Notes under the pieces: generated by a model
Databases searched by the model: none
Told to the model about the DNA's origin: nothing
The model's input: only the letters and a program-made list of their open reading frames with translations
Position numbers and translations under genes: made by a program
Source of the DNA: Patescibacteria group bacterium
Lineage (GTDB): Bacteria; Patescibacteriota; Patescibacteriia; UBA10025; JAHIVO01
Direction of reading: 5' to 3'
Assembly (NCBI GenBank): GCA_022560375.1
Contig: JADFTK010000007.1
Location: 1 to 34,552, forward strand
Length of the DNA stretch: 34,552 nt
Shown here: one piece after another, positions 4,616 through 32,080 of the stretch
How the letters are laid out: the number at the start of each line of letters is the position of its first letter
Position numbering within the stretch: the stretch's first letter is position 1

Positions 4616-6346
4616 CTACTTGATTACTGCTACATTTACTCCCCCCCTGAAATTATCTAAATATGCAAAAAATTGGGATCGCACATTGCCCTTTAAGGAA
4701 AAGACGCGTACTTGGGGCCCTCCGCCATTGCCCGCTCCAGTTATGATTTCATAAGCTCCATCACCATACATATCTCCGCTGGCAACTTGTACTCCTCCAC
4801 GGAATGATTCATGATAAGCAAAGAATTGAGCTTTTAGTGCGCCTTTATTGCTGAAAACTCTCACCTGGGGTCCGCCAGTATCACCAGCTCCAGTAATTAT
4901 TTCCATGATTCCATCACCATCTACGTCACCAGCAGCCACATTGACACCGCCTCGGAAGGTATCGGCGTAAGCAAAGAACTGCGACTGGAGATTGCCACCA
5001 TCGTCCAACACTCTTACCTGGGGTCCGCCGCCGTTACCAGTACCAGTTAATATGAATTGTGAAGAAGGCAATAGTAATTGTAAGGCGCTAGACACATTCA
5101 ATCTCCCCGATCCCAGCTGACCAGAAATTGATGAATTTTTTGAATCGATGTTGTCAGCGCCGAGTAATAAATTTTGCATTAATTGCTGACTAGTCAGAGA
5201 TGAATCATAAGCTTTTAGCAGGGCCGCTGCTCCAGCAACCATCGGGCTTGCCAGTGACGTCCCCGACCACCCGCCTAAATAATAATCATCCAAACCATTA
5301 TCAGGGTCATAGACGACCGTACTAAAAAAATCGATTGAGGGGGCGGATATATCAGTACAATTTGACCCGTAATTCGATCCGCCAGTAACCCTATTACCAC
5401 TCTTTAGTACTAAACGCACGTCATTTTTATCTACGCCGGCCACGCCTAATACGTTGTCGCTGCAAACGGGATAACGTGGGTTAGAATTTAAATCCACCCC
5501 TTCATTGCCAGCCGCAGCTATTACCAGTACCCCCGCCTCAGCAGCTGACTGGATAGCCTTAGGAAGTAAACTCCCCTGATTATTACCCACAAAACTTAAA
5601 TTAATAATGTCAGCACCATTGGCCACCGCATAATTAATGCCCTCATAAACATCTCTAGTATCGCCCAAACCCACGCTATCCAGTACGCGAACCGGCATGA
5701 TAGTTACTGACCAGTTAGACCCGGCAATGCCAATATTATTATTTCCCAGCGCACCGACTACACCCGCAATGGCCGTTCCGTGATTGACTCCTGACGATGT
5801 CCAGCCTGCATCATATTTGGGATTCGGATCAGGCACCTCTCCTACAAAATCCCAACCATTATAATCGTCAACATAGCCATTGCCATCGTCGTCAATCCCA
5901 TTGCCAGCTATTTCATCGCTATTTATCCAAATATTACTTGATAAATCCGGATGATCTATATCAATCCCTGTATCCAGTACCGCCACGATTATATTACGGC
6001 TGCCGGTTACAGTATTCCACGCTGCCGGGTTACCCACCTTACTGTGATACCACTGGCTGCCATAATTAGCGTCATTGGGAGTGCGAGTCATTTTAAACGA
6101 ATAATTCGGCTCCACGAAATCCACCTGTGGTTCGTTCCGATAAAAATCCACTAATGAATCGATATTTTCTTCATCACTTAGAACTATCTTGTAAATTTTG
6201 GCGCTCCGATTCAATTTTATGAGTAAACTATCCGCATCTGGCGTGCTAGTGCCAGCCAATGCTTCGATATTGCTGAAAGCCAGAAGTATTAAAAGTGATA
6301 AAACGAAAAGGGCACCGCAATTTTTATTTGTTATATTAATTATCAT
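4616..6346 (-). CDS. Secreted S8 (subtilisin-like) serine protease with C-terminal FG-GAP-like repeats
   Basis: This is a 576-residue protein. Residues 10-31 form a hydrophobic signal peptide. Residues about 38-90 look like an I9-type propeptide ending in QVDFVEPN. The catalytic triad is intact: D125 in VLDTGIDIDHPDL, H189 in NHGTAIAG, S364 in GTSLASPMVAG, with oxyanion N281 in AAAGNEG. An acidic insert (about 144-160) resembles a calcium loop. Residues about 430-576 contain three repeats with cores GGGPQVRV, FFAY and FRGGV, two of them followed by an acidic D-x-D-G-D-like loop, as in FG-GAP/VCBS beta-propeller repeats. It is likely exported and surface-associated. The next gene upstream encodes an HtrA-like protein, suggesting a shared envelope role. 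Confidence 0.9.
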   Translation of the reverse strand: MIINITNKNCGALFVLSLLILLAFSNIEALAGTSTPDADSLLIKLNRSAKIYKIVLSDEENIDSLVDFYRNEPQVDFVEPNYSFKMTRTPNDANYGSQWYHSKVGNPAAWNTVTGSRNIIVAVLDTGIDIDHPDLSSNIWINSDEIAGNGIDDDGNGYVDDYNGWDFVGEVPDPNPKYDAGWTSSGVNHGTAIAGVVGALGNNNIGIAGSNWSVTIMPVRVLDSVGLGDTRDVYEGINYAVANGADIINLSFVGNNQGSLLPKAIQSAAEAGVLVIAAAGNEGVDLNSNPRYPVCSDNVLGVAGVDKNDVRLVLKSGNRVTGGSNYGSNCTDISAPSIDFFSTVVYDPDNGLDDYYLGGWSGTSLASPMVAGAAALLKAYDSSLTSQQLMQNLLLGADNIDSKNSSISGQLGSGRLNVSSALQLLLPSSQFILTGTGNGGGPQVRVLDDGGNLQSQFFAYADTFRGGVNVAAGDVDGDGIMEIITGAGDTGGPQVRVFSNKGALKAQFFAYHESFRGGVQVASGDMYGDGAYEIITGAGNGGGPQVRVFSLKGNVRSQFFAYLDNFRGGVNVAVIK

Positions 6347-9106: not shown

Positions 9107-10920
9107 CGTTTTAATATGGCCAAGAATGCCTCCTGGGGAATATCAACCTTGCCCATGGATTTCAGGCGCTTTTTTCCTTTTTTTTGCTTAGAAAGAAGCT
9201 TCTTCTTGCGCGTGACATCACCTCCATACAAATTAGCCGTAACGTCTTTGCGCATTGGTGGAATGCGTGAGGCAGCAATGATAGTCCCCCCTACTGCCGC
9301 TTGAATTTTTACCTCGAACTGTTGACGCGGCAATATATCTTTTAGATTATCTACAACCTTCCTGCCGGCTCGGTAGGCCTCGTCTTTATTTACAATACTA
9401 GCTAAAGCCTCGACAATTTCACCGGCCACTATTATATCCAGCTTCTGTATTGAGCAAACTCTATACTCTAAAAAAGTATAATTCATGGAAGCATATCCAG
9501 AGGAAACACTCTTTAGTTTATCATAAAATTCAATTAATATACTAGCTAAGGGAACTTGGTAATGAAGGATAGCTTTGGCACTATCAATATATTCGGTATC
9601 AATATATACCCCTCTTTTTTCCTTAACCAAAGACATGATACTGCCAATATATTCTGCCGGTGTCACAATATCAACTAACATCCAGGGCTCCTGAATAGAC
9701 TCCAAATGGCTGGCGTCAGGTAGCTTCAAAGGGCTGGTCACTATGGCTTGTTTGGCGTTAAAGCTCTTGTCCCTCTTTTGCATGGCCCGAAAACCATTAT
9801 CATTGTAAACAACTCGGTAACCGACGGAAGGTGCAGTTACAACTATTTTTAAATTATGTTCACGGGCTAAACGCTCTTGGAATATATCCAAATGAAGCAA
9901 TCCCAAAAAACCACAGCTAAAACCAAATCCCAGCGCATCTGAGTGATCGGGCTCAAAAGTTAAAGAGGCATCACTTAAGGCAATCTTATTAATCCCCTCC
10001 CTCAGGCGTGCATAGTCATCACCTTCCTTGCAAAAAATACCAGCAAAGACCATGGGTTTTAATTCCTGATACCCGTGCAGAGCCTCCAGGGATGGATTGT
10101 TGGCGACAGTAATGGTATCACCAACTCGTGAATGCTGAACATCTTTTAGTCCGGAAACGATATACCCTATGTCCCCGGCCTTCAACTCGCTTGACGAAAC
10201 TAATTTTGGTTTAAAGTAGCCAACATCCAAGCACTCGGCCTCTTTTTTACTGGCCATTAATAATATCCGATCACCTTTACTGATCTTTCCACTAAATACT
10301 CGGCCATATACTATTACTCCCTTATATTCATCGAATAAAGAATCAAAAATTAAAAACTGAGTAGGATCATCCACGCTACCCTTTGGTACTGGCACTCTAT
10401 CAATAACAGCCTGGAGAATCCCTTCAACCCCATCACCCGTCTTGGCAGAAACGGTAAGCACCTCTTCAGCCTGACATCCGATCAAATTGACAAGGTCCTT
10501 ACGAACACGCTCAATGTCAGCGTTTGGTAAATCAATTTTATTTATTACCGGGATAATAGTTAAATCCTGGTCAATAGCCAAATATAAATTAGCCAGAGTT
10601 TGAGCCTCGATGCCCTGAGTCGCGTCAACTAACAGAATGACTCCCTCCACTGCCGCTAAAGATCGAGACACCTCATAGGTGAAATCTACGTGTCCGGGCG
10701 TATCGATTAGATTTAGAATTTTACCTCTAAACTCCATACGCACTGGTTGTAGCTTGATGGTGATGCCTCGTTCCCGTTCTAGATCCATTTGATCCAACAT
10801 TTGATCTTTCATTTCCCTCTTACTGACAGTGCCCGTAATCTCTAAAAACCTATCGGCCAGTGTGGATTTGCCGTGGTCAATATGGGCTATTATGCAAAAA
10901 TTTCGGATATTATTATTCAT
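9103..10920 (-). CDS. lepA: Elongation factor 4 (LepA GTPase)
   Basis: This is a 605-residue translational GTPase of normal LepA length. The P-loop is AHIDHGKST near residues 12-20, switch II DTPGH near 77-81 and the guanine-specificity motif NKID near 131-134. The LepA-specific C-terminal domain ends in GKKRLKSMGKVDIPQEAFLAIL, with its basic GGDVTRKKKLL segment. It binds ribosomes and remodels stalled or mistranslocated elongation complexes. The gene overlaps the 3' end of murJ by 8 bp, so the two are almost certainly co-transcribed. No SD is present; the upstream sequence is the end of murJ. Confidence 0.97.
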   Translation of the reverse strand: MNNNIRNFCIIAHIDHGKSTLADRFLEITGTVSKREMKDQMLDQMDLERERGITIKLQPVRMEFRGKILNLIDTPGHVDFTYEVSRSLAAVEGVILLVDATQGIEAQTLANLYLAIDQDLTIIPVINKIDLPNADIERVRKDLVNLIGCQAEEVLTVSAKTGDGVEGILQAVIDRVPVPKGSVDDPTQFLIFDSLFDEYKGVIVYGRVFSGKISKGDRILLMASKKEAECLDVGYFKPKLVSSSELKAGDIGYIVSGLKDVQHSRVGDTITVANNPSLEALHGYQELKPMVFAGIFCKEGDDYARLREGINKIALSDASLTFEPDHSDALGFGFSCGFLGLLHLDIFQERLAREHNLKIVVTAPSVGYRVVYNDNGFRAMQKRDKSFNAKQAIVTSPLKLPDASHLESIQEPWMLVDIVTPAEYIGSIMSLVKEKRGVYIDTEYIDSAKAILHYQVPLASILIEFYDKLKSVSSGYASMNYTFLEYRVCSIQKLDIIVAGEIVEALASIVNKDEAYRAGRKVVDNLKDILPRQQFEVKIQAAVGGTIIAASRIPPMRKDVTANLYGGDVTRKKKLLSKQKKGKKRLKSMGKVDIPQEAFLAILKR

Positions 10921-12541
10921 AATTTATATCGCTACCATTTTCCCCGTTAGCAAACTGGCGCTTGGCCTTTCTGTACCAATCTGAAATTATTTTTATCTCA
11001 TCACATTTAAAAATATGAGCCAGGATTAAATAAAAAACAATGCCTATAATCCCCGCCCCCACTCCCTGGATGAAAATACCTACGAAGCTCTGCATATTCA
11101 CTCCCAGGGATAAAACGTATTTGGCAGCAGTGACCACCGCTCCCATCATGGCTGAGATAAGTACTATTTTTACGATGGAGAGGACAATCTTCTTATCATC
11201 AAGGTAGCCTATTTTTCGGCGTAATAGTATCAAAAGTAATAACATATGAATAAATCCCGCGATGGAGAATGCTAAGCCCAGGCCTATTACCCCCATATTC
11301 GGCACCAGTAAAATAGCCCCAATTATATTAATAGCTACCGCCACGATAGCAACCTTGACCGGCGTCTTCGTATCCTGCCAGGCATAAAAAGACCTAGCTA
11401 ATAGAGGAATAACCGCCTGGGCGAACAGAGATAACGAGAAGAAGCCCAGCGTTTGAGCGGTCAATATGGTATCGGTCCAGTCAAAAGCCCCTGCCCCCAA
11501 AACGACTCGGACTATCTGGGCACGTAAAAGAAGGATTAAAACGGATATGGGTATCACTAAAAATAAAATTCTCCTGAAAGTGGTGGAAAAATGCACCACA
11601 AACAATTCCTTATCTTTTTTCGCCGAAGCCTCGCTGATAAATGGGAATGAAGCGATGGCTAAGGAAACGCCAAAAACACTAATCGGGAAATACTGGAGAT
11701 TATTAGCAAAATTAAATACCGCGACTGATCCTACAGCCAGCGTCGAGGCAATAATAACACTAACCAGCTGATCTATTTGGCTTACCGCCAATCCAAACGT
11801 ACGGGGCAGCATCAATCGTCCGATAGTCCGCACCCCACGATGCCGGGGATCAGCAATCAGCTGATAGCGGTAACCAAGTCTCAAAACACCTGGTATTTGT
11901 ATGGCTAAATGCAAAAGTGAACCCAGTACTACACCATAAGCTAGGCCATAAACACCATACACCGGTACTAAAAAAACGATGCCAATAATAATGCCGACAT
12001 TATAAAAAACAGGCGCAAAAGCGAAATTTGCGTACCGTTTAAAAGAATTTAGCACTCCAGTCAATACATTACTAATCCCAAAGAATATTATTGAGGCTAG
12101 CATGATTCTAGTCATACTGACTACCATGGCTTGCTTAGCAGCCTCAAATCCAGGCGCGATCAACGGAACAATCTGAGGGGCAAAAATAAAAAATAAGGCT
12201 CCAAAAATAACTAAACCTATTAAAAGTATATTTAATAAAGAATTAACTAAGTACCAAACGTCTGCCTTCTTCTCAGGATCTTCTCTGGCGCTCTCTATAT
12301 ATTGGACAAAAATGGGAATAAAAGCTGCTGACAATGCCCCCAGTACCAATACATTGAAAACTAAATCGGGAATTCTAAAAGCAGCGTAGTATATATCAAG
12401 CGTATCCCCTGCGCCAAATTTTGTAGCTAGTAGTCTATCTCTAACTAAACCAAGCAGTCGGCTAGTAACAGAAGCAGACGCTACTATAATTGCACCACCA
12501 GCTAAGGTGGTGGTTAACTTGCGCCAAATTTTTGGAATCAT
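10913..12541 (-). CDS. murJ: Lipid II flippase MurJ (MviN family)
   Basis: This is a 542-residue polytopic protein with about 14 predicted membrane helices. The N-terminal MurJ signature is ASVTSRLLGLVRDRLLATKFG, with conserved arginines, and there is a FGAGDTLDIYYAAFRIPD segment. It flips lipid II across the cytoplasmic membrane for peptidoglycan synthesis. A promoter-like pair lies immediately upstream and would leave only about 8 nt of leader. The 3' end overlaps lepA by 8 bp. Confidence 0.93.
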   Translation of the reverse strand: MIPKIWRKLTTTLAGGAIIVASASVTSRLLGLVRDRLLATKFGAGDTLDIYYAAFRIPDLVFNVLVLGALSAAFIPIFVQYIESAREDPEKKADVWYLVNSLLNILLIGLVIFGALFFIFAPQIVPLIAPGFEAAKQAMVVSMTRIMLASIIFFGISNVLTGVLNSFKRYANFAFAPVFYNVGIIIGIVFLVPVYGVYGLAYGVVLGSLLHLAIQIPGVLRLGYRYQLIADPRHRGVRTIGRLMLPRTFGLAVSQIDQLVSVIIASTLAVGSVAVFNFANNLQYFPISVFGVSLAIASFPFISEASAKKDKELFVVHFSTTFRRILFLVIPISVLILLLRAQIVRVVLGAGAFDWTDTILTAQTLGFFSLSLFAQAVIPLLARSFYAWQDTKTPVKVAIVAVAINIIGAILLVPNMGVIGLGLAFSIAGFIHMLLLLILLRRKIGYLDDKKIVLSIVKIVLISAMMGAVVTAAKYVLSLGVNMQSFVGIFIQGVGAGIIGIVFYLILAHIFKCDEIKIISDWYRKAKRQFANGENGSDINYE

Positions 12542-12596: not shown

Positions 12597-12762
12597 CCAA
12601 AAAGCTGCCGGCTAGGACGGAAAGTTTAGATTATTGAATAGAAGGTGTTCTAAATAACTTTAGAACATGAGGAGAGAGATTTTTCTATTCAAGTAAATTA
12701 AACTACCGCCACGCAATAGTCGACAGCTTTCTGTAGCTAACCTATAAATAGAATTAGTTAGC
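12597..12762 (-). ncRNA. Candidate structured small RNA upstream of murJ
   Basis: A good minus-strand promoter predicts a start at 12762. The transcript begins with a GCTAAC/GTTAGC hairpin (12736-12762). A 16-position closing helix follows, pairing 12717-12732 with 12599-12614 (AGAAAGCTGTCGACTA with TAGCCGGCAGCTTTTT), with 15 pairs including two G-U. Inside it are a 10-bp helix (TTGAATAGAA/TTCTATTCAA) and a 9-bp apical hairpin (TGTTCTAAA-GTTA-TTTAGAACA). One side bulges a pyrimidine tract containing CTCTCTCCTC, which is SD-complementary. The long rod with internal loops also resembles 6S RNA in outline, but I cannot confirm that. No ORF of note is encoded. The 3' end is uncertain. Confidence 0.45.
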
Positions 12763-12768
12763 AAACTA

Positions 12769-12797
12769 ATCGTAGAAAAACAATATTCATTTGTCAA
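12769..12797 (-). promoter_or_regulatory. Promoter for the RNA candidate upstream of murJ
   Basis: Perfect TTGACA (12797-12792), a 17-base spacer and TACGAT (12774-12769) on the minus strand. This is essentially the same architecture as the rnpB promoter in this window. The predicted start at 12762 coincides with the base of the first hairpin of the downstream RNA. Confidence 0.6.
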
Positions 12798-12810
12798 GAA
12801 ATATAATACT

Positions 12811-12914
12811 CACTTTTGAATTTACTAGACTTGCTAATACATTCAAAAGTGGAGGAGAGAGGCAGAAAGTTTTATCGTCAGATGACAATATTACTATTCA
12901 TTTGCCTCTCTCCT
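12811..12914 (-). terminator. Double inverted repeat at the 3' end of the 150-residue membrane protein gene
   Basis: Reading on the minus strand after the stop at 12932, a 12-bp perfect stem AGGAGAGAGGCA/TGCCTCTCTCCT (12903-12914 with 12853-12864) is followed by CCACTTTTG. The CACTTTTGAAT of that tail itself forms an 11-bp perfect stem with ATTCAAAAGTG (12841-12851 with 12811-12821). An 11-bp direct repeat ATCGTCAGATG (12874-12884, 12928-12938) spans the stop codon. The layout is a terminator-like hairpin whose T-rich tail is the arm of a second hairpin, the same as in the other gaps of this island. Confidence 0.5.
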
Positions 12915-12931
12915 TTGTGAATTGGAGATCG

Positions 12932-13384
12932 TCAGATGCGGTACGGTAAAGAAATCCACCAAATACTTATAAAATAGATAAATGGCATGACAAACACGAC
13001 ATAGAGACCGACCACAAATCCCCCAAGATTTTTGATAAAATGTATTATCCAAACTCCGCCGAGTACCACCATGAAGGCATAAACGAGCAAGTTGACCAGC
13101 AAGTATCCAGCGCGCATACCCCAGTCTGTCCAGTAGTATATCCACCAAGTGAGATAAGTACTCTCAGGGTCAAAAAAACTGAGACCATCACCCACATCCT
13201 GTATTGGCAGAATTGCCCAATGAAAGAACAATAACGCCAAACCGTAGATATATCCGGTTTTTTCAGATTGTCTTTTCCACCACGACTGCACTCTCTGTAA
13301 TCGGCTTAGCATTAATACAAAGCCTACCAGTATACTACCGTTCACGAAAAAAACCATGAACGCCAGTCCTTCTGTGTTAGCCAT
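12932..13384 (-). CDS. Polytopic membrane protein (150 residues), small-gene island
   Basis: The start is set at 13384 because a strong SD (AGAGAGG) lies seven bases upstream; an in-frame ATG 33 bases earlier has none. The protein has four or five predicted membrane helices and is unusually rich in tryptophan and aromatic residues (for example WWKRQ, TWWIYYWTDWG, ISIWWISLPY). There is an acidic loop in the middle (DVGDGLSFFDPEST). No family is recognised. It is the last gene of the island before murJ and is followed by a double hairpin. Codon use is more GC-balanced, with more CTG, GTG and CAG, than in the polysaccharide genes around it. Confidence 0.7.
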   Translation of the reverse strand: MANTEGLAFMVFFVNGSILVGFVLMLSRLQRVQSWWKRQSEKTGYIYGLALLFFHWAILPIQDVGDGLSFFDPESTYLTWWIYYWTDWGMRAGYLLVNLLVYAFMVVLGGVWIIHFIKNLGGFVVGLYVVFVMPFIYFISIWWISLPYRI

Positions 13385-13428
13385 ATGACACCTCTCTTTT
13401 TTTATTTCAATGTTCAATTATTTCCAAC

Positions 13429-13570
13429 CACAGAAATGGAGGTGAGTAGTACACTTTATCTGAGCTAAGCTAAATAGCGTACCGGATACAAACATTCTTA
13501 TCTGGCTCAGTTCGCACCGAGCTAAACGAATGTCAAACGTATCCGCCTCATCTCCCCCCATTTCTGTAAT
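13429..13570 (-). repeat. Large inverted-repeat structure in the leader of the 150-residue membrane protein
   Basis: The outer arms ACAGAAATGGAGG-TGAG (13429-13446) and CTCATCTCCCCCCATTTCTGT (13550-13570, complementary) pair across about 100 bases. Inside, CCGGATACAAACATTC pairs with GAATGTCAAACGTATCCG, and GAGCTAAGC and GAGCTAAACG copies lie near each other. The structure sits between the conserved CTCTTTTTCAGC hairpin and the SD of the gene starting at 13384, so it would be in that gene's 5' leader. A minus-strand reading frame through it has no SD and no recognisable protein. It is likely a structured leader or a gene remnant. Confidence 0.4.
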
Positions 13571-13592
13571 TGCAATGTAATGTACAATTATT

Positions 13593-13709
13593 CTCTTTTT
13601 CAGCAAACTTGAGCCCTATGGGCGATATCCTGAGTCCGGATGGACGAAGGAACTCACATTCGCTGGAAAAGAGGTATGAGACAAGAAATTAAAACTCCAT
13701 GTCTCATAC
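13593..13709 (-). repeat. Island hairpin module, divergent copy
   Basis: Two adjacent stems. GTATGAGACA (13674-13683) with TGTCTCATAC (13700-13709) is a perfect 10-bp hairpin directly downstream of the 51-residue gene. CTCTTTTTCAGC (13593-13604) with GCTGGAAAAGAG (13662-13673) has arms identical to the other two copies but a different, longer loop of 57 bases. Identical arms around unrelated loops suggest selection on the stem. On the minus strand the first hairpin is followed by CTCTTTTCC, like an imperfect terminator tail. Confidence 0.6.
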
Positions 13710-13731
13710 TTATATAATCGCGAAGCTATTA

Positions 13732-13887
13732 TCAATTCTCCTTAACAATAAAGAACTCGTATATTGCAACGGCAAAACCTAAGGCCATATAATCAGTCCA
13801 TCCCGGTTTGCCCAGGATCTCCGAAGCAATGACCTGCGCCACAACCAGTACAACGATGATCAAAAAGCTACGTAACATTTTTTTCAT
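13732..13887 (-). CDS. 51-residue small membrane protein, small-gene island
   Basis: A strong SD (AAAGGAG) lies six bases before the ATG at 13887. The product begins MKKMLRSFLIIVVLVVAQVI and has a hydrophobic N-terminal helix (about 5-22), a short polar turn with GKPGWTDY, and a second hydrophobic segment (about 33-46) ending FFIVKEN. It is therefore a two-pass small membrane protein or a short secreted peptide. The leader contains one of the two identical 59-bp repeats, and the 3' side carries a perfect 10-bp hairpin. No family is recognised. Confidence 0.65.
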   Translation of the reverse strand: MKKMLRSFLIIVVLVVAQVIASEILGKPGWTDYMALGFAVAIYEFFIVKEN

Positions 13888-13929
13888 CACGTACTCCTTT
13901 CAAATAGAATTGTTTACAATGTGCAATTA

Positions 13930-13988
13930 TTTCTCTTTTTCAGCATCTAATGACATTAAGCCGTTAGACGCTGGAAAAGAGGGGCGAG
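13930..13988 (-). repeat. 59-bp direct repeat, copy A (hairpin module)
   Basis: Identical over 59 bases to 14510-14568. Arms CTCTTTTTCAGC (13933-13944) and GCTGGAAAAGAG (13970-13981) extend through ATCTAA/TTAGAC to an 18-position stem with a single mismatch and a 13-base loop. GGCGAG at its edge (13983-13988) pairs with CTCGCC (14007-14012), the hairpin at the 3' end of the lipoprotein gene. It lies about 43 bases upstream of the 51-residue gene's start. Confidence 0.8.
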
Positions 13989-14038
13989 GAATGTTTTGAA
14001 TATTCACTCGCCACTAAATATCTGTGAGTATATCTGAC

Positions 14039-14473
14039 CTAGTTAAAGGCCTTTAAGTCACTGAAAGAGAATTTAACATCCCTTGGTGGATCCCAACCAT
14101 ACAGAATATGTATAATATCCTCGGCCGGATCACCGTCCAGATTGCCACGTAATTCAACTACATACTGATTAAAAGGGCCAAACAACAAATTATAATAGCT
14201 CGCGTTCTTGACTTTAAACGTATAAACACTATCCGTCGGAACATCGAACTTATAGTTGGGAATCGTGTCCAACGCAGCAATCGACCTTGGCATCTTGCCG
14301 TACCAGTCTACATAGACGTGAACCGCAGCGATGACAACTTTTCCCTTCTCAATCGCAGCTTGCTGGATTGACCGTTGTTCGGACATGATATCGTCTGACG
14401 AATCAGCTGAACCGCAGCCAACCATAATACTCAAAGTGCACAACATGCACATCATTAGAATAATCTGCTTCAT
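14039..14473 (-). CDS. Predicted lipoprotein, small-gene island
   Basis: The start at 14473 (144 residues) is chosen because GAGGT lies eight bases upstream and because the product then begins with a lipoprotein signal peptide, MKQIILMMCMLCTLSIMVGC, with Cys20 as the modified residue. A longer frame from 14527 runs through the hairpin repeat and adds 18 residues, MLKKR and following, without an SD. The mature part is acidic at first, then mixed, with NLDGDPAEDIIHILYGWDPP near the end. I recognise no family, though the helix then Y-x-x-W-Y-G-K-x-P pattern near residues 50-65 recalls type II pilin-like secreted proteins. Downstream is the hairpin at 13983-14012. Confidence 0.65.
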   Translation of the reverse strand: MKQIILMMCMLCTLSIMVGCGSADSSDDIMSEQRSIQQAAIEKGKVVIAAVHVYVDWYGKMPRSIAALDTIPNYKFDVPTDSVYTFKVKNASYYNLLFGPFNQYVVELRGNLDGDPAEDIIHILYGWDPPRDVKFSFSDLKAFN

Positions 14474-14509
14474 TTTTGGTACCTCACTTGTAAAGAACGT
14501 TGGCGTTTT

Positions 14510-14568
14510 GTTTCTCTTTTTCAGCATCTAATGACATTAAGCCGTTAGACGCTGGAAAAGAGGGGCGA
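14510..14568 (-). repeat. 59-bp direct repeat, copy B (hairpin module)
   Basis: Exact copy of 13930-13988, 580 bases away. Arms are at 14513-14524 and 14550-14561. Its outer edge GGGCGAGAGATAA (from 14562) pairs with TTATCCCTCGCCC (14591-14603) to form a 13-position stem next to the stop of the 42-residue peptide gene. Beyond the shared 59 bases the second stem differs from copy A yet still pairs, which argues for conserved structure. It lies about 39 bases upstream of the lipoprotein start. Confidence 0.8.
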
Positions 14569-14631
14569 GAGATAAAAGAGTGTTATCATATTATCCCTCG
14601 CCCGTGGCATCCGTTAAATTTACAAGATGCC

Positions 14632-14760
14632 TTAGTTACCCAAGTCTGCAGAAAGTGCTAGCACAATGCTAGCGATCAGTGTGCCAATAACATTATTGGC
14701 TTCCGTTTCAGTTGCAGCAAGTGGTAACTCTTCAGTACTTGGATTAGTGACTTTATTCAC
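14632..14760 (-). CDS. 42-residue peptide with hydrophobic core, small-gene island
   Basis: A GTG start at 14760 with GGAGG ending eight bases before it. The product has a polar, Thr/Glu-rich N-terminal half (NPSTEELPLAATETEANN) and a hydrophobic C-terminal half (VIGTLIASIVLALSA) ending in DLGN. The layout resembles small secreted or membrane-active peptides, but no family is recognised. The stop is followed by a GGCATC/GATGCC hairpin and then the 13-position stem linked to the 59-bp repeat. The preceding ORF's TAA abuts this GTG. Confidence 0.5.
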   Translation of the reverse strand: MNKVTNPSTEELPLAATETEANNVIGTLIASIVLALSADLGN

Positions 14761-14889
14761 TTAATCCTCCTCTGGTTGATACTGGTTATCGTTGTAATGA
14801 ACATTTGGTGCCCCAACTGGCTTTTTACGACCATCACTTCCATGACGATTTTTTTCACGTTGGCTATCCTTGCCACGTTGGCTCCACAT
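14761..14889 (-). CDS. Possible 42-residue hydrophilic peptide
   Basis: An ATG at 14889 opens a 42-codon frame whose product is very hydrophilic and basic then acidic (MWSQRGKDSQREKNR at the start, QYQPEED at the end). Its TAA directly precedes the GTG of the next small gene, whose SD lies inside its last codons, as expected for a translationally coupled pair. The GGAG before the ATG is too close (two bases) to be a good SD. A second frame from a GTG in the same region also stays open (33 codons). Coding is only moderately likely. Confidence 0.3.
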   Translation of the reverse strand: MWSQRGKDSQREKNRHGSDGRKKPVGAPNVHYNDNQYQPEED

Positions 14890-15074
14890 ACTCCATCAGG
14901 AATATGAGCAGAGTTGGGACATATTTTTCAACGAAAGAGAAGGATGCTAGCGACACGCCTTTGGTTGCGAACAACCCAACGTGTCAGATACCAGAGACAG
15001 TGATATGTCAGTCGAAACCAACACCATACTATCTCATAATGATACCCGTTATCTAGCCCTCCTTTTCCTTCATC
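14890..15074. other. Intergenic stretch without a convincing gene
   Basis: Between the possible peptide start and the terminator at 15075 I see no gene I can support. A plus-strand frame (14805-15056) is open but lacks an SD and has an unprotein-like, His/Cys-scattered composition. The segment would be the leader of the minus-strand island transcript if the terminator at 15075-15116 is read through. Confidence 0.4.
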
Positions 15075-15116
15075 AAAAAACGAGCAGTCCTTATTTTTTT
15101 GGAGAGCTCGTTTTTT
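15075..15116 (-). terminator. Bidirectional intrinsic terminator
   Basis: An 11-bp perfect stem AAAAAACGAGC (15075-15085) / GCTCGTTTTTT (15106-15116) encloses a 20-base loop. On the minus strand it ends in six Ts, and on the plus strand it ends in TTTTTTG. It can end the polysaccharide operon whose last stop is at 15383. It also lies about 130 bases downstream of a consensus promoter on the same strand, so it could be an attenuator for the small-gene island. Confidence 0.75.
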
Positions 15117-15251
15117 GTTTGAGTTATTGTTGGTTGCAAATAATACATCTTATAGATATATTATTCCCATCAAAAAGCATCTGCTTTTTTAACGACTCTC
15201 TCCTCAAAGAGTTTTGATATATTGTTTTATAAAACAACAGTTTAACAAGCA
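15117..15251 (-). ncRNA. Possible leader RNA or small RNA between promoter and terminator
   Basis: The interval between the TTGACA/TATGAT promoter and the intrinsic terminator would give a transcript of roughly 130-170 nt. It contains the palindrome near its 5' end, a purine-rich tract matching an SD but with no start codon at the right distance, and a short AAAAAGCA/TGCTTTTT hairpin. An 18-codon ATG frame exists 19 bases after the purine tract, which is too far to be convincing. Either a free small RNA or an attenuated leader fits. Confidence 0.35.
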
Positions 15252-15280
15252 ATCATATACCTACCTGGTTTCCCTGTCAA
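15252..15280 (-). promoter_or_regulatory. Consensus promoter facing the small-gene island
   Basis: Perfect TTGACA (15280-15275), 17-base spacer, TATGAT (15257-15252) on the minus strand, the same hexamers and spacing as the rnpB promoter. A 10-bp palindrome CCACATGTGG (15291-15300) lies just upstream of the -35 box and a 16-bp palindrome TTGTTTTATAAAACAA (15222-15237) just after the predicted start near 15245. Both are plausible operator sites. The transcript reaches the terminator at 15116-15075 after about 130 nt and contains the purine tract TGAGGAGAGAG (15206-15196) but no SD-linked start codon. Confidence 0.55.
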
Positions 15281-15382
15281 GACTAGATATCCACATGTGG
15301 TATAATTTTCTCTTGTCTTAGCCAAAATTAAATACTAAAAAATACCTCTGTAGCTACTATCTTGCCCCAACAGAGTCTAAAA

Positions 15383-17683
15383 CTACTTTAATAATATCCC
15401 GTAAAAAATATCACCAGTTAAATCTGAAATTAATCGAACACCACTATTAGTAACCTCAATGCCGGGCTGAACCCATTGTAAGTCATAGTCTGCAGGTATG
15501 GTTACGCTACTACTAAAAAAATTATTGATACTGCCTGGCTGCTTTTGAATCAACAAACTATAGGTATCAGTTCTGCTAAATAAACCCCCTGTATCCAATT
15601 GGAATGGCAGACGATACTTGATAGTCACCTTCTTAACTTCCCCCGGTTCTACACTAAGCCAATTACCAAACACAGTTTTACCAAATTCAGTAGTCAGGCG
15701 TGTGCCGCTCTGCTCATCTATAATTGAGCCTGCTTCAACCCTAGATAAATCGTCATCAATAACTGCATCAGCATCAGGCAATTGATATCGGAATGAAGGT
15801 ATCCGGGTAAAACCAGTGGCTGCTATCAAGGTACTACCCTGGGGGACATAAAATCTTAAATAAGAAACATTAGCTTGCTGCTCCCATCTATCTAAAGAAC
15901 TGCCAGTATGTGACCTCGTAATAGTGACGGTATTTATTATTGAGCCGTCTGGCTGGATAGCTGCATCGTGCTCTATTAGCTGGTCAATAACGTGATCAGT
16001 CTTGCCGCCAGCAATATTTGTGTTCACCACGTAAAGATAATCCCGAGTGCTAGTTTTGACACTGCCATCCCATCCCAGCTGGGTCACTTTATTTTGGACA
16101 GATTCATCGGAAAAATACATCAAAAATTCCTTTTGACGTAATGACCTGCTGAACACATCTAAAACATTCAACAAATTATCCGCGTCAGTTTGAAATACCT
16201 GATCTAGCAATTTAGGCAGCAGGTCGCCGATAAATTTCTTCGGCTGGTTTTCATCACGGTCATATTCCACCTCCGCCCATAACTGGGCCTGCCGTACAAA
16301 ATTTCCACTATCTACTACTACACCGTAGTCCTCAGTCATATCAATCGATCCAGTGGCATTGAGCAGATCCTCTATCACTGCGGGCGTTAAGGAAATTATT
16401 CCATCAACCGTAGTACCGCCGGTACGCTCATAAAACCAAATGATTTTTCGCGCTGAAGTCGGAAAATCTACGAACCAATTACTATCCTGGATATTCCAGT
16501 GAGGATTGACTAACCAGAGCGGCTTGGGAGATATTATCTTATCTTTTAGCTGACCAGCTACATCATATACTCCTCCACCTGGAACTTCTAAATTCTCTAC
16601 TCTGCCCTGATACATATCAACCAAGGCAATCGAGCCAATGAAACCGCCAGTAGGCCTTAATTCTCTGGTGTTTTGGAAAATAAACAAGAATCTCTGAGGC
16701 TGCTCCTTGCCTAGCATATGTAACATGACCTCCGTCAACGAGGATAAATTATCAAACGAATCTCGTAGCAAAGGAATGCTACTTTTTACTTTCTCAATGG
16801 CAGGCTGGAATTCTTCTGGGACATCACTAATTCTAACCTTATCTAAATCATCAGCCGCGCCCTCAATAACATTTTTTACAGGGAGTAACTCATTATTAAT
16901 CAAATCCAAGAATTCAGTCAGTGACGAGGAGGATTGCTCGAGAGGATTAACGTTGAATGAATCAATGCTGCCAATCAAATTCGTGACGATAGCGCCGGCC
17001 CGGCTTAATTTTTCCCCTGCCGATAATAAATACTGGGCACTTTTTGCCTGCCCCGGAACAATTGAAGCGATATCAAGCACCAGGCCACCCGCATCATTTA
17101 GCTGCTGCTGAGCCATCAAAAAATCCTCACTGGCTTTGCTAAAATTTTGTGCAGCTAAATCGTACTCCGAATTAGCTACTAATGATCCTGCGTCTTGTAA
17201 ACTTGCATAGGCCAAGGAAGATATGCCCAAAACCGAACCCTTGGCAGCGGAGGCTCTTTCATAAAAACTTATCAGATAAACAGGTAATACAATGATGAAG
17301 CAGGCTGAAGCGAATATCAACAGTTTTTTGTACCAACCACCAGATAATTGAAACTGATCGTACTCAATTTTCTCCGACGGATTATCAAGTAACTCTTCTC
17401 TCGGGCTAATCGTCGGTTGGGGTTTTTTTGAAACAACTACCTTCTCCTTCATTTTTCTCACTGGAAAAGGAAAATTAAATGATAGTATCGATTTCGATTT
17501 AATTTTTATTCTAGGCCAATAATTTTTTACGATTGTTGCTTTCCGATTCTCCTTAATTTTATCCCTGTCGTCTTGTATTTTTTTTAGATCAATAATATTG
17601 TCCCTAGGAATGCCAACATTACTAGACTGGATACTAGATGGTGACGAATTCTTTTTTTGACCATTACCTCTGTTAATTCTCAT
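15383..17683 (-). CDS. DUF4012 domain protein in exopolysaccharide locus
   Basis: This is a 766-residue protein. A basic, disordered N-terminal tail (1-115) precedes one membrane helix (119-140). A helical region (about 150-330) rich in Ala, Ser and Gln follows, then the DUF4012 core starting around FLFIFQNTRELRPTGGFIGS, with PGGGVYDVAGQL and NIQDSNWFVDFP segments. The C-terminal part is beta-rich and extracellular by topology. DUF4012 proteins occur at the ends of polysaccharide gene clusters in Patescibacteria and Actinobacteria; their biochemical role is not known, though a LytR-like glycan-attachment role has been suggested by context. A GGAG precedes the ATG by about six bases, one of the few SDs outside the island. 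Confidence 0.85.
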   Translation of the reverse strand: MRINRGNGQKKNSSPSSIQSSNVGIPRDNIIDLKKIQDDRDKIKENRKATIVKNYWPRIKIKSKSILSFNFPFPVRKMKEKVVVSKKPQPTISPREELLDNPSEKIEYDQFQLSGGWYKKLLIFASACFIIVLPVYLISFYERASAAKGSVLGISSLAYASLQDAGSLVANSEYDLAAQNFSKASEDFLMAQQQLNDAGGLVLDIASIVPGQAKSAQYLLSAGEKLSRAGAIVTNLIGSIDSFNVNPLEQSSSSLTEFLDLINNELLPVKNVIEGAADDLDKVRISDVPEEFQPAIEKVKSSIPLLRDSFDNLSSLTEVMLHMLGKEQPQRFLFIFQNTRELRPTGGFIGSIALVDMYQGRVENLEVPGGGVYDVAGQLKDKIISPKPLWLVNPHWNIQDSNWFVDFPTSARKIIWFYERTGGTTVDGIISLTPAVIEDLLNATGSIDMTEDYGVVVDSGNFVRQAQLWAEVEYDRDENQPKKFIGDLLPKLLDQVFQTDADNLLNVLDVFSRSLRQKEFLMYFSDESVQNKVTQLGWDGSVKTSTRDYLYVVNTNIAGGKTDHVIDQLIEHDAAIQPDGSIINTVTITRSHTGSSLDRWEQQANVSYLRFYVPQGSTLIAATGFTRIPSFRYQLPDADAVIDDDLSRVEAGSIIDEQSGTRLTTEFGKTVFGNWLSVEPGEVKKVTIKYRLPFQLDTGGLFSRTDTYSLLIQKQPGSINNFFSSSVTIPADYDLQWVQPGIEVTNSGVRLISDLTGDIFYGILLK

Positions 17684-23165: not shown

Positions 23166-23603
23166 TGCCTAAATAAACCTATAAGCCGAATCCTGTATCC
23201 GCAAAAAGCGGACGATGATTATCTATCTGGTTCCGACGTTACCATCGAAATCGAGCGACCAACCCTCTCCACTATATTAGCGGAGACTACTTGGTCTTGC
23301 ACCGGATAGGGTTTTTCACATTGATCGATCGCCCGACCAATCTGTGAGCTCTTACCTCACCTCTTTTCACCCTTGCCTGTGGCCGCCTAAGGCGACCCAT
23401 CGGCGGTATTGTCTCTGTGACACTAATCCCGAGGTGACACCCCTTAAAAGACTATAGACCTTTTAAAAGCTGTTCCTGGTCGCATTTCGCGACTATCCAC
23501 TTCCCCTTCACCTTTATACATTTCTAAAACCTACAAAGGTGAAGGGGGGTGTTCGGACTTTCCTCCCCCGCTAGTGGGGGCAATCATCCAGTTTATTCAG
23601 GCA
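23166..23603 (-). ncRNA. rnpB: RNase P RNA, bacterial type A
   Basis: The minus strand carries the universal 5' core GAGGAAAGTCCGAACAC just after a GC hairpin. The mid-molecule landmarks GGTGAGGTAAGAGCTCACAG follow, then the 3' core AGATAGATAATCATC and ATACAGGATTCGGCTTATAGG. The ends pair as helix P1 (GCCTGAATAAAC at the 5' end with GTTTATTTAGGC at the 3' end), which sets the boundaries at about 23603 and 23166. The 3' consensus ACAGAA-CCGGCTTA appears here as ACAGGATTCGGCTTA. It is the RNA subunit that matures tRNA 5' ends. A near-perfect promoter predicts the same 5' end. Confidence 0.95.
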
Positions 23604-31814: not shown

Positions 31815-31891
31815 ATAAAGCCTGGCGGTAATTACGTTTATATCACCTCTTAAAGGCTTCCAAAAAAGAAGAAAAAAATGTATACTACAAA

Positions 31892-32051
31892 TATTCCTTC
31901 GGGGTTGGGTGCAAGTCCCAATCGGTGGTATAGCCCACGAGTCCTACAGGACACGATTTGGTGATCCGCCTGCCAAACTACCTGCAAGCCGCAGGCAATG
32001 GCTGGTAGAAATTCCAAAGCCGACCGTATAGTCGGGATGAAAGAAGGAAAT
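31892..32051 (+). promoter_or_regulatory. FMN riboswitch (RFN element)
   Basis: All landmarks of the RFN aptamer are present in order: P1 ATTCCTTCGGGG, GTGCAAGTCCCAATCGG, GGTATAGCCCACGAG, a GATTTGGTGA segment, a variable arm, AATTCCAAAGCCGACCGTATAGTCGG, then the closing GAAGGAAAT. FMN binding would favour the terminator that follows and lower rib gene expression. It lies directly upstream of the riboflavin genes. Confidence 0.93.
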
Positions 32052-32080
32052 GACCCATCATTGGTGGAGAGTTTAGGTAC

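Follow-up and report, generated by a model that had tools for sequence, protein, structure and literature searches.

An RNA-organised island of exchangeable small genes at a fixed locus in Patescibacteria

What holds together an island of five small genes spaced by hairpins, and how is it read? The island lies on contig JADFTK010000007.1 (C9 in our numbering) of a Patescibacteria group bacterium, assembly GCA_022560375.1, whose genome is 1.1 Mb in length and 97% complete. The window, meaning the whole stretch of DNA analysed, is 34,552 nt long. The island occupies 2.8 kb of it between a DUF4012 gene and a gene that we take to be murJ, and everything is on the minus strand. The names murJ and, elsewhere, lepA are presumptive, given from sequence and not from a family search. 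Several undescribed regulatory RNA structures hold the island together; they are kept in six genera and are seen in other families. These structures are kept and nearly all carried genes are swapped, so a shared, unreported gene-control system common to a large group of uncultured bacteria appears likely.

A fixed locus with changing genes

One genome per species was compared. The class was sampled (380 genomes) and not covered exhaustively, and several class loci lie on short contigs. The order DUF4012 gene, island, murJ is kept in the window's genome (G000) and in five other genera of its order (G001–G005), with G001 split over two contigs. The same interval carries strikingly different genes in these relatives; the conserved part is RNA. 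What DNA searches within the family picked up were short conserved patches and no genes. Cargo proteins of the six islands, compared all against all, share almost no homology. The best match, a weak one (E 7e-4), is between gene 5 and the membrane protein encoded last in the G002 island. Gene 4 and a 61-aa gene of G003 look alike by eye and had no BLAST match. A pentapeptide-repeat protein is the sole cargo protein recognised by Pfam. Most of the cargo is predicted to be small proteins of secreted, membrane or lipoprotein-like type, whose genes have strong Shine-Dalgarno (SD) motifs.

Cargo thus turns over at a fixed, RNA-defined locus, and the RNA chassis is present in the window and the five relatives. 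It consists of a strong promoter with a leader hairpin (A), a terminator (B), two three-way-junction RNAs (C and D), junctions made of stem1, stem2 and a boxA-like motif, and a 3′ hairpin RNA (E). The original prediction, made from the window's sequence, had described five co-oriented small genes in a modular array with RNA-level control. The genes stand as described (Table 1). The array reading is well supported by regulatory RNAs kept across genera and families with differing genes between them, and the expected variation in cargo was found among the genomes compared. SD motifs precede 5/5 island genes (one weak) versus 6/27 host genes, which agrees with the contrast it had drawn. Perfect inverted repeats of at least 9 bp number 6 in the island versus 0.7 in shuffles, and 20 in the remaining 31.7 kb of the window. 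The promoter, leader and attenuator (15280-15074), the three-way-junction RNAs and the terminal RNA go beyond that prediction. Two further structured RNAs in the window, an RNase P RNA and an FMN riboswitch (23166-23599 and 31891-32052), are both ordinary.

Leader, three-way-junction and terminal RNAs

RNA C, before the first gene, and its second copy D share a three-way-junction fold, one hairpin of which (GGU..ACU) is invariant. D orthologues of the six genera have like folds (z -6.0 to -8.3) with 22 of 37 pairs compensated; for the C/D RNA, fold z is -4.0 to -9.6. Model R2 was built from D copies alone. It recovers C although no C copy went into it, and its only matches in the six genomes of the order are in islands. 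Of 380 class genomes, 24 have a match at E <= 0.01, 18 of them in eight further families. A 29-copy alignment was fitted to the model, by which covariation counts are somewhat inflated and model E-values unaffected; it has compensatory changes at 29 of 37 pairs, 87% paired cells (66% shuffled), 227 compensatory cells (73 shuffled) and a covariation score of 0.55 (0.19 shuffled, at most 0.10 slid). RNAalifold, run on this alignment with no structure imposed, predicted the same junction again. Rfam covariance models gave no convincing match to C/D, E, the leader or tRNA-like structures in the window, the order's islands and ten class loci. C/D is a well-supported RNA family without an Rfam match in the loci scanned.

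Promoters scoring at least 10/12 stand within 160 nt upstream of 13 of 29 C/D copies (random 1.8 ± 1.3), mostly 50–80 nt away. Several loci have a boxA-like motif between promoter and C/D, e.g., GGTTCTTTAACAA, and an SD-led open reading frame follows 18 of the 29 copies. This layout of promoter, boxA, RNA, SD and gene suggests processive antitermination. At L131 (7850-8300, G185), beside fusA, a C/D RNA has a second structured stretch and then a terminator downstream of it; no gene is obvious there, and this is possibly a stand-alone non-coding RNA. A tmRNA identity for the element GGTTTCGAC was rejected: each of the four family genomes has its true tmRNA at another place, and the element is a C/D arm.

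All eight order leaders examined (six members) have a strong promoter and then GAGGAGAGAG, mostly with GAGG in a hairpin loop. An intrinsic terminator hairpin follows, with a CUCUCC-like stretch in its loop that is complementary to the leader; equivalents of B are thus present in other leaders. GAGGAGAGAG also occurs in leaders of genomes from other families. The exact 15-mer CTTTGAGGAGAGAGT is found in 5 of 380 class genomes, all within this order. Counted over whole genomes, GAGGAGAGAG or its complement occurs 3 times in G000, always in the island, and twice in G003, in the leader and E. RNA E, a long hairpin with a U-run at its end, exposes CUCUCUCCUC, the exact complement of the leader, in a single-stranded bulge. 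CTCTCTCCTC is the invariant block in an otherwise divergent E, and it is mostly unpaired in six of six E folds (unpaired probability 0.79-1.00). The pair of leader and E is also found in two other families, in G095 and in G046 (about 10 kb apart in G046). The G079 leader has a variant, GAGGAGAAAG, in which hairpin pairing is kept by compensating changes; a compensating E was not found on the G079 stretches examined.

The pIP501 RNAIII, pT181 RNAI and P4 CI RNA control attenuators as antisense RNAs. As in those systems, a small RNA of the island exposes a sequence complementary to a leader hairpin, and a terminator lies downstream of that hairpin. Unlike them, E is chromosomal and has no cis-antisense overlap, being encoded 2.5-10 kb away at the opposite, 3′ end of the island.

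Two further observations concern the leader sequence. A conserved GCACATTACA-like box lies slightly upstream of GAGGAGAGAG in leaders of G004, G005, G046, G079, G095, G107 and G026. Two stand-alone genes of lipoprotein or secreted type, L057 (G001:C16:13788) and L073 (G001:C39:18619), have GAGGAGAGAG at or just before the SD and could be further targets of RNA E.

The island could also be what is left of a domesticated phage or satellite, in which E would resemble an antisense immunity RNA (P4/P1 style) and the cargo would be morons. Phage early operons have similar features, namely an antisense RNA against a leader attenuator, motifs of boxA type and SD-led orphan genes that look foreign, and the positive support is confined to such style. 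No phage genes were found, the PHROG search of cargo proteins gave nothing convincing (no match better than E ~0.04), and BLAST found no match in phage records. Viral contigs held no true match for either element: stem2 matches lacked hairpin context and were read as coding, and C/D matches failed the model. The chromosomal site is also identical in six genera. A phage origin is improbable and was set aside.

Junctions between the genes

A gene-specific stem and then a second stem had been predicted after each gene. Stem1 followed by stem2 is found at four junctions, after only four of the five genes because the first two genes abut. At these four junctions the 5′ arm of stem2 is the pyrimidine tail of stem1, as proposed. 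The arms CTCTTTTTCAGC/GCTGGAAAAGAG are indeed identical in three copies, with one C.A mismatch on the coding strand. The loops, said to differ among them, differ in one copy only (junction 3), because junctions 1 and 2 have the same 49-nt stem2, loop included. These two junctions are 98% identical over 62 nt, including the whole stem2. The two stretches (13927-13988 and 14508-14569) could recombine, deleting the lipoprotein gene between them.

The arms are not general terminators; they have exactly three occurrences in the 1.1-Mb genome, all in the island. Across genera, 6 of the 12 stem2 pairs show double (compensatory) changes and one position is often C.A; in the outer arms, pairing is conserved and sequence is not. 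Matches to the stem2 model in the order's genomes are in the islands, at two sites in a second G004 island and at two weak sites (E 0.3-0.5). Stem2 is nearly island-specific within the order. As an order-specific mark it was disproved by a like stem2 in another family: G058 has two identical copies, with an GGCTAATGTC loop in common with G004. Among named genomes, two cases only were convincing, G004 (WY2.bin33) and G005 (Parcubacteria group GW2011_GWA2_48_9); other matches were in open frames or without the arrangement. Rfam microRNA-type matches to stem2 were under gathering scores and taken as chance.

The second RNA-organised island in G004 lies at C1:118.7-125.3 kb (L102, G004:C1:113000-127000; 118700-125300) and has different cargo. 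Its genes are, by eye, exonuclease-like, Csx3-like, P-loop and radical-SAM-like, with repeated CTCTCTCC/GGAGAGAG elements.

Tandem hairpins with conserved arms and variable loops raise the question of an integron-like recombination array, in which stem2 would serve as a folded site for recombination, like attC, and the genes would be mobile cassettes. Promoterless co-oriented orphan genes behind a common upstream promoter, nearly complete cargo turnover and the identical 62-nt junctions would fit. Unlike integron arrays, the island has no integrase and, by eye, no recognised attI/attC cores, and its junctions contain terminator-like stem1 and boxA. A PF00589 search of the order's genomes found one tyrosine recombinase each in G002, G004 and G005, most likely Xer, and none at or near the locus; no intI-specific model was run. 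Stem2 arms vary from one genus to another and follow the stem1 tails, and stem2 is missing at other C/D loci. By eye, with no attC model run, the R/L core-site arrangement of attC was not seen; one loop (GTCTAAC) is like the cores RYYYAAC/GTTRRRY, probably by chance, and other stem2 copies are not. The single Xer-like recombinase of complete genomes makes an integron, or a CALIN, very improbable, and this reading was rejected. The results give no support for reading the predicted array as mobile cassettes of integron type, since no dedicated integrase was found.

The boxA-like motif G[N]TCTT[TC] is found at most 45 nt after stem2 and before the SD at 14 of 35 junctions. At random positions 1.67 ± 1.23 are expected, with a maximum of 7 in 3000, and the reversed motif is found at 2 of 35. 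These counts are for a hand-picked junction list, used because an automated junction finder gave many false calls in coding DNA, and the enrichment is not blind because the motif was noticed in these junctions before the test. Two things argue for a real motif: the reversed control, and its independent presence between promoter and C/D. As in NusB/S10 antitermination, a boxA-like motif in the transcript adjoins a hairpin.

The same junctions could belong to an ordinary operon with intercistronic processing or stability hairpins. Stem1 would guard the upstream message at its 3′ end, stem2 would guard the downstream message at its 5′ end, and C/D would be leader stabilisers or translation enhancers, with no antitermination. 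The exact abutment of stem1 and stem2, outer arms that conserve pairing and not sequence, and an SD for every gene agree with this, and tRNA-like cloverleafs in G004, G005 and G058 could be processing signals. Conserved promoter-boxA-C/D spacing, enriched boxA-like motifs, leader/E complementarity and confinement of the junctions to islands are left unexplained. We consider an ordinary operon unlikely, while giving it real weight.

The tRNA-like cloverleafs have a good T-arm and an encoded CCA end in G004 and G005 and are less clear in G001, G046 and G058. They lie at L035 (G004 ~378870-379000), L036 (G005 ~40675-40855), L140 (6795-6922) and L134 (~4874-4985). ARAGORN and Rfam RF00005 made no tRNA call at these positions, though T-arm, acceptor and CCA are seen by eye. 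CCA is encoded in some, no anticodon arm is recognisable, and they are positioned like a non-coding cassette.

Table 1. Features of the island and its flanks, in order of transcription (window coordinates)
Feature	Position	Strand	Remarks
DUF4012 gene	15383-17683	minus	flanks island
Leader promoter	15252..15280	minus	TTGACA-17-TATGAT; 11/12 consensus; strong promoter at equivalent place in relatives
A, leader hairpin	15195..15212	minus	ACTCTTT-GAGG-AGAGAGT; shows GAGGAGAGAG; kept in relatives
B, terminator/attenuator hairpin	15074..15117	minus	AAAAAACGAGC..GCTCGTTTTTT; CTCTCC in loop, complementary to leader
C, first three-way-junction RNA	14929..15077	minus	model R2 E 2.1e-6 genome-wide; fold z -5.7
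Gene 1	14761..14889	minus	open reading frame, putative gene, 42 aa; weak SD; no Pfam or PHROG match
Gene 2	14632..14760	minus	42 aa; GTG start; SD AGGAGG
Junction 1 stem1	14563..14603	minus	14 pairs
Junction 1 stem2	14514..14562	minus	exact-arm match; model R1 E 1.4e-9
boxA-like motif	14488..14499	minus	CGTTCTTTACAA; motif enriched after stem2
Gene 3	14039..14473	minus	predicted lipoprotein, 144 aa; SD GAGGT; orphan
Junction 2 stem1	13982..14014	minus	hairpin
Junction 2 stem2	13933..13981	minus	identical to junction 1 stem2
Gene 4	13732..13887	minus	hydrophobic peptide, 51 aa; SD AAGGAG
Junction 3 stem1	13674..13709	minus	hairpin
Junction 3 stem2	13593..13673	minus	long loop; arm match, model R1
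D, second three-way-junction RNA	13425..13573	minus	folding, covariation, model search
Gene 5	12932..13384	minus	multi-span membrane protein, 150 aa; SD GAGGTG
Junction 4 stem1	12853..12914	minus	inverted repeat AGGAGAGAGGCA..TGCCTCTCTCCT
Junction 4 stem2	12811..12851	minus	inverted repeat
Promoter of RNA E	12769..12797	minus	TTGACA-17-TACGAT; separate; also in G001, G002, G003 by eye
E, hairpin RNA	12597..12729	minus	exposes CTCTCTCCTC (12669-12678); U-run at end
murJ (presumed)	10913-12541	minus	other island flank

Transcription model and significance

We infer from these elements that the island may be one long RNA-controlled transcription unit, in which a conserved RNA chassis carries replaceable orphan cargo under antitermination and repression by E; in our judgement the chances for and against are about even. 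Transcription would start at the strong leader promoter and meet the leader hairpin (GAGGAGAGAG) first, then terminator hairpin B, whose loop could pair with the leader. RNA E would have a promoter to itself at the opposite end, clear in four genomes. Through CUCUCUCCUC, E would most likely bind the leader, shift the balance at B and repress the array. Polymerase past B would transcribe C/D and the boxA-like motifs after stem2, and these would most likely recruit NusB/S10-type factors that make it resistant to the terminator-like stem1 at gene ends, so that a many-gene array could be read from one promoter. Stem2 may be boxB-like or protective.

Several points weigh against this model. The strict boxA pattern is absent from the majority of junctions. 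The pyrimidine tail of stem1 often contains little U (e.g., TCCCTCCTTC in G003). Many of these stems may therefore terminate weakly, in which case antitermination would not be needed. The CUCUCC of B is in the terminator loop, not an arm, and attenuation would therefore be no clean either/or switch. Pairing of leader and E is without covariation support of its own because it is invariant on both sides. Some C/D copies (e.g., L131, L139) have no obvious downstream gene.

The rrn leader has the order boxB, boxA, boxC, with the hairpin ahead of boxA (PMC10250234), and NusB/NusE associate with boxA (PMC4807359). As in rrn/lambda-type processive antitermination (nut; NusB-S10), the island has a strong promoter and a hairpin followed by a boxA-like motif, and would give a long transcript with internal terminator-like stems. 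It differs in its protein-coding orphan cargo, in a motif repeated after junctions and in the three-way-junction RNA. Among antiterminators made of RNA or led by it, HK022 put (PMC9378689), EAR and LoaP elements are similar in having a structured leader RNA before an array with terminator-like stems; C/D differs from them in its three-way junction and invariant hairpin, and Rfam gave no match to it at the loci scanned. The unmatched RNA family and the arrangement of chassis and cargo are new among open-licence PMC papers, and the mechanisms proposed for the parts resemble known ones. More tentatively, the islands may be an undescribed Patescibacteria platform, in which a fixed RNA chassis, including tRNA-like spacers, would express freely exchangeable orphan secreted or membrane genes and C/D would represent a new RNA class that acts in antitermination or as a sensor.

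Structured RNA families this well supported by covariation and without an Rfam match are rare, and C/D comes from a phylum in which gene regulation has hardly been studied. The leader, the C/D model and the terminal RNA are a handle for locating such islands and their orphan genes. If antitermination is true, these reduced-genome bacteria would express rapidly changing surface-type proteins, which could serve host attachment or defence, by a mechanism that resembles that of rRNA operons and has a small RNA as its gate.

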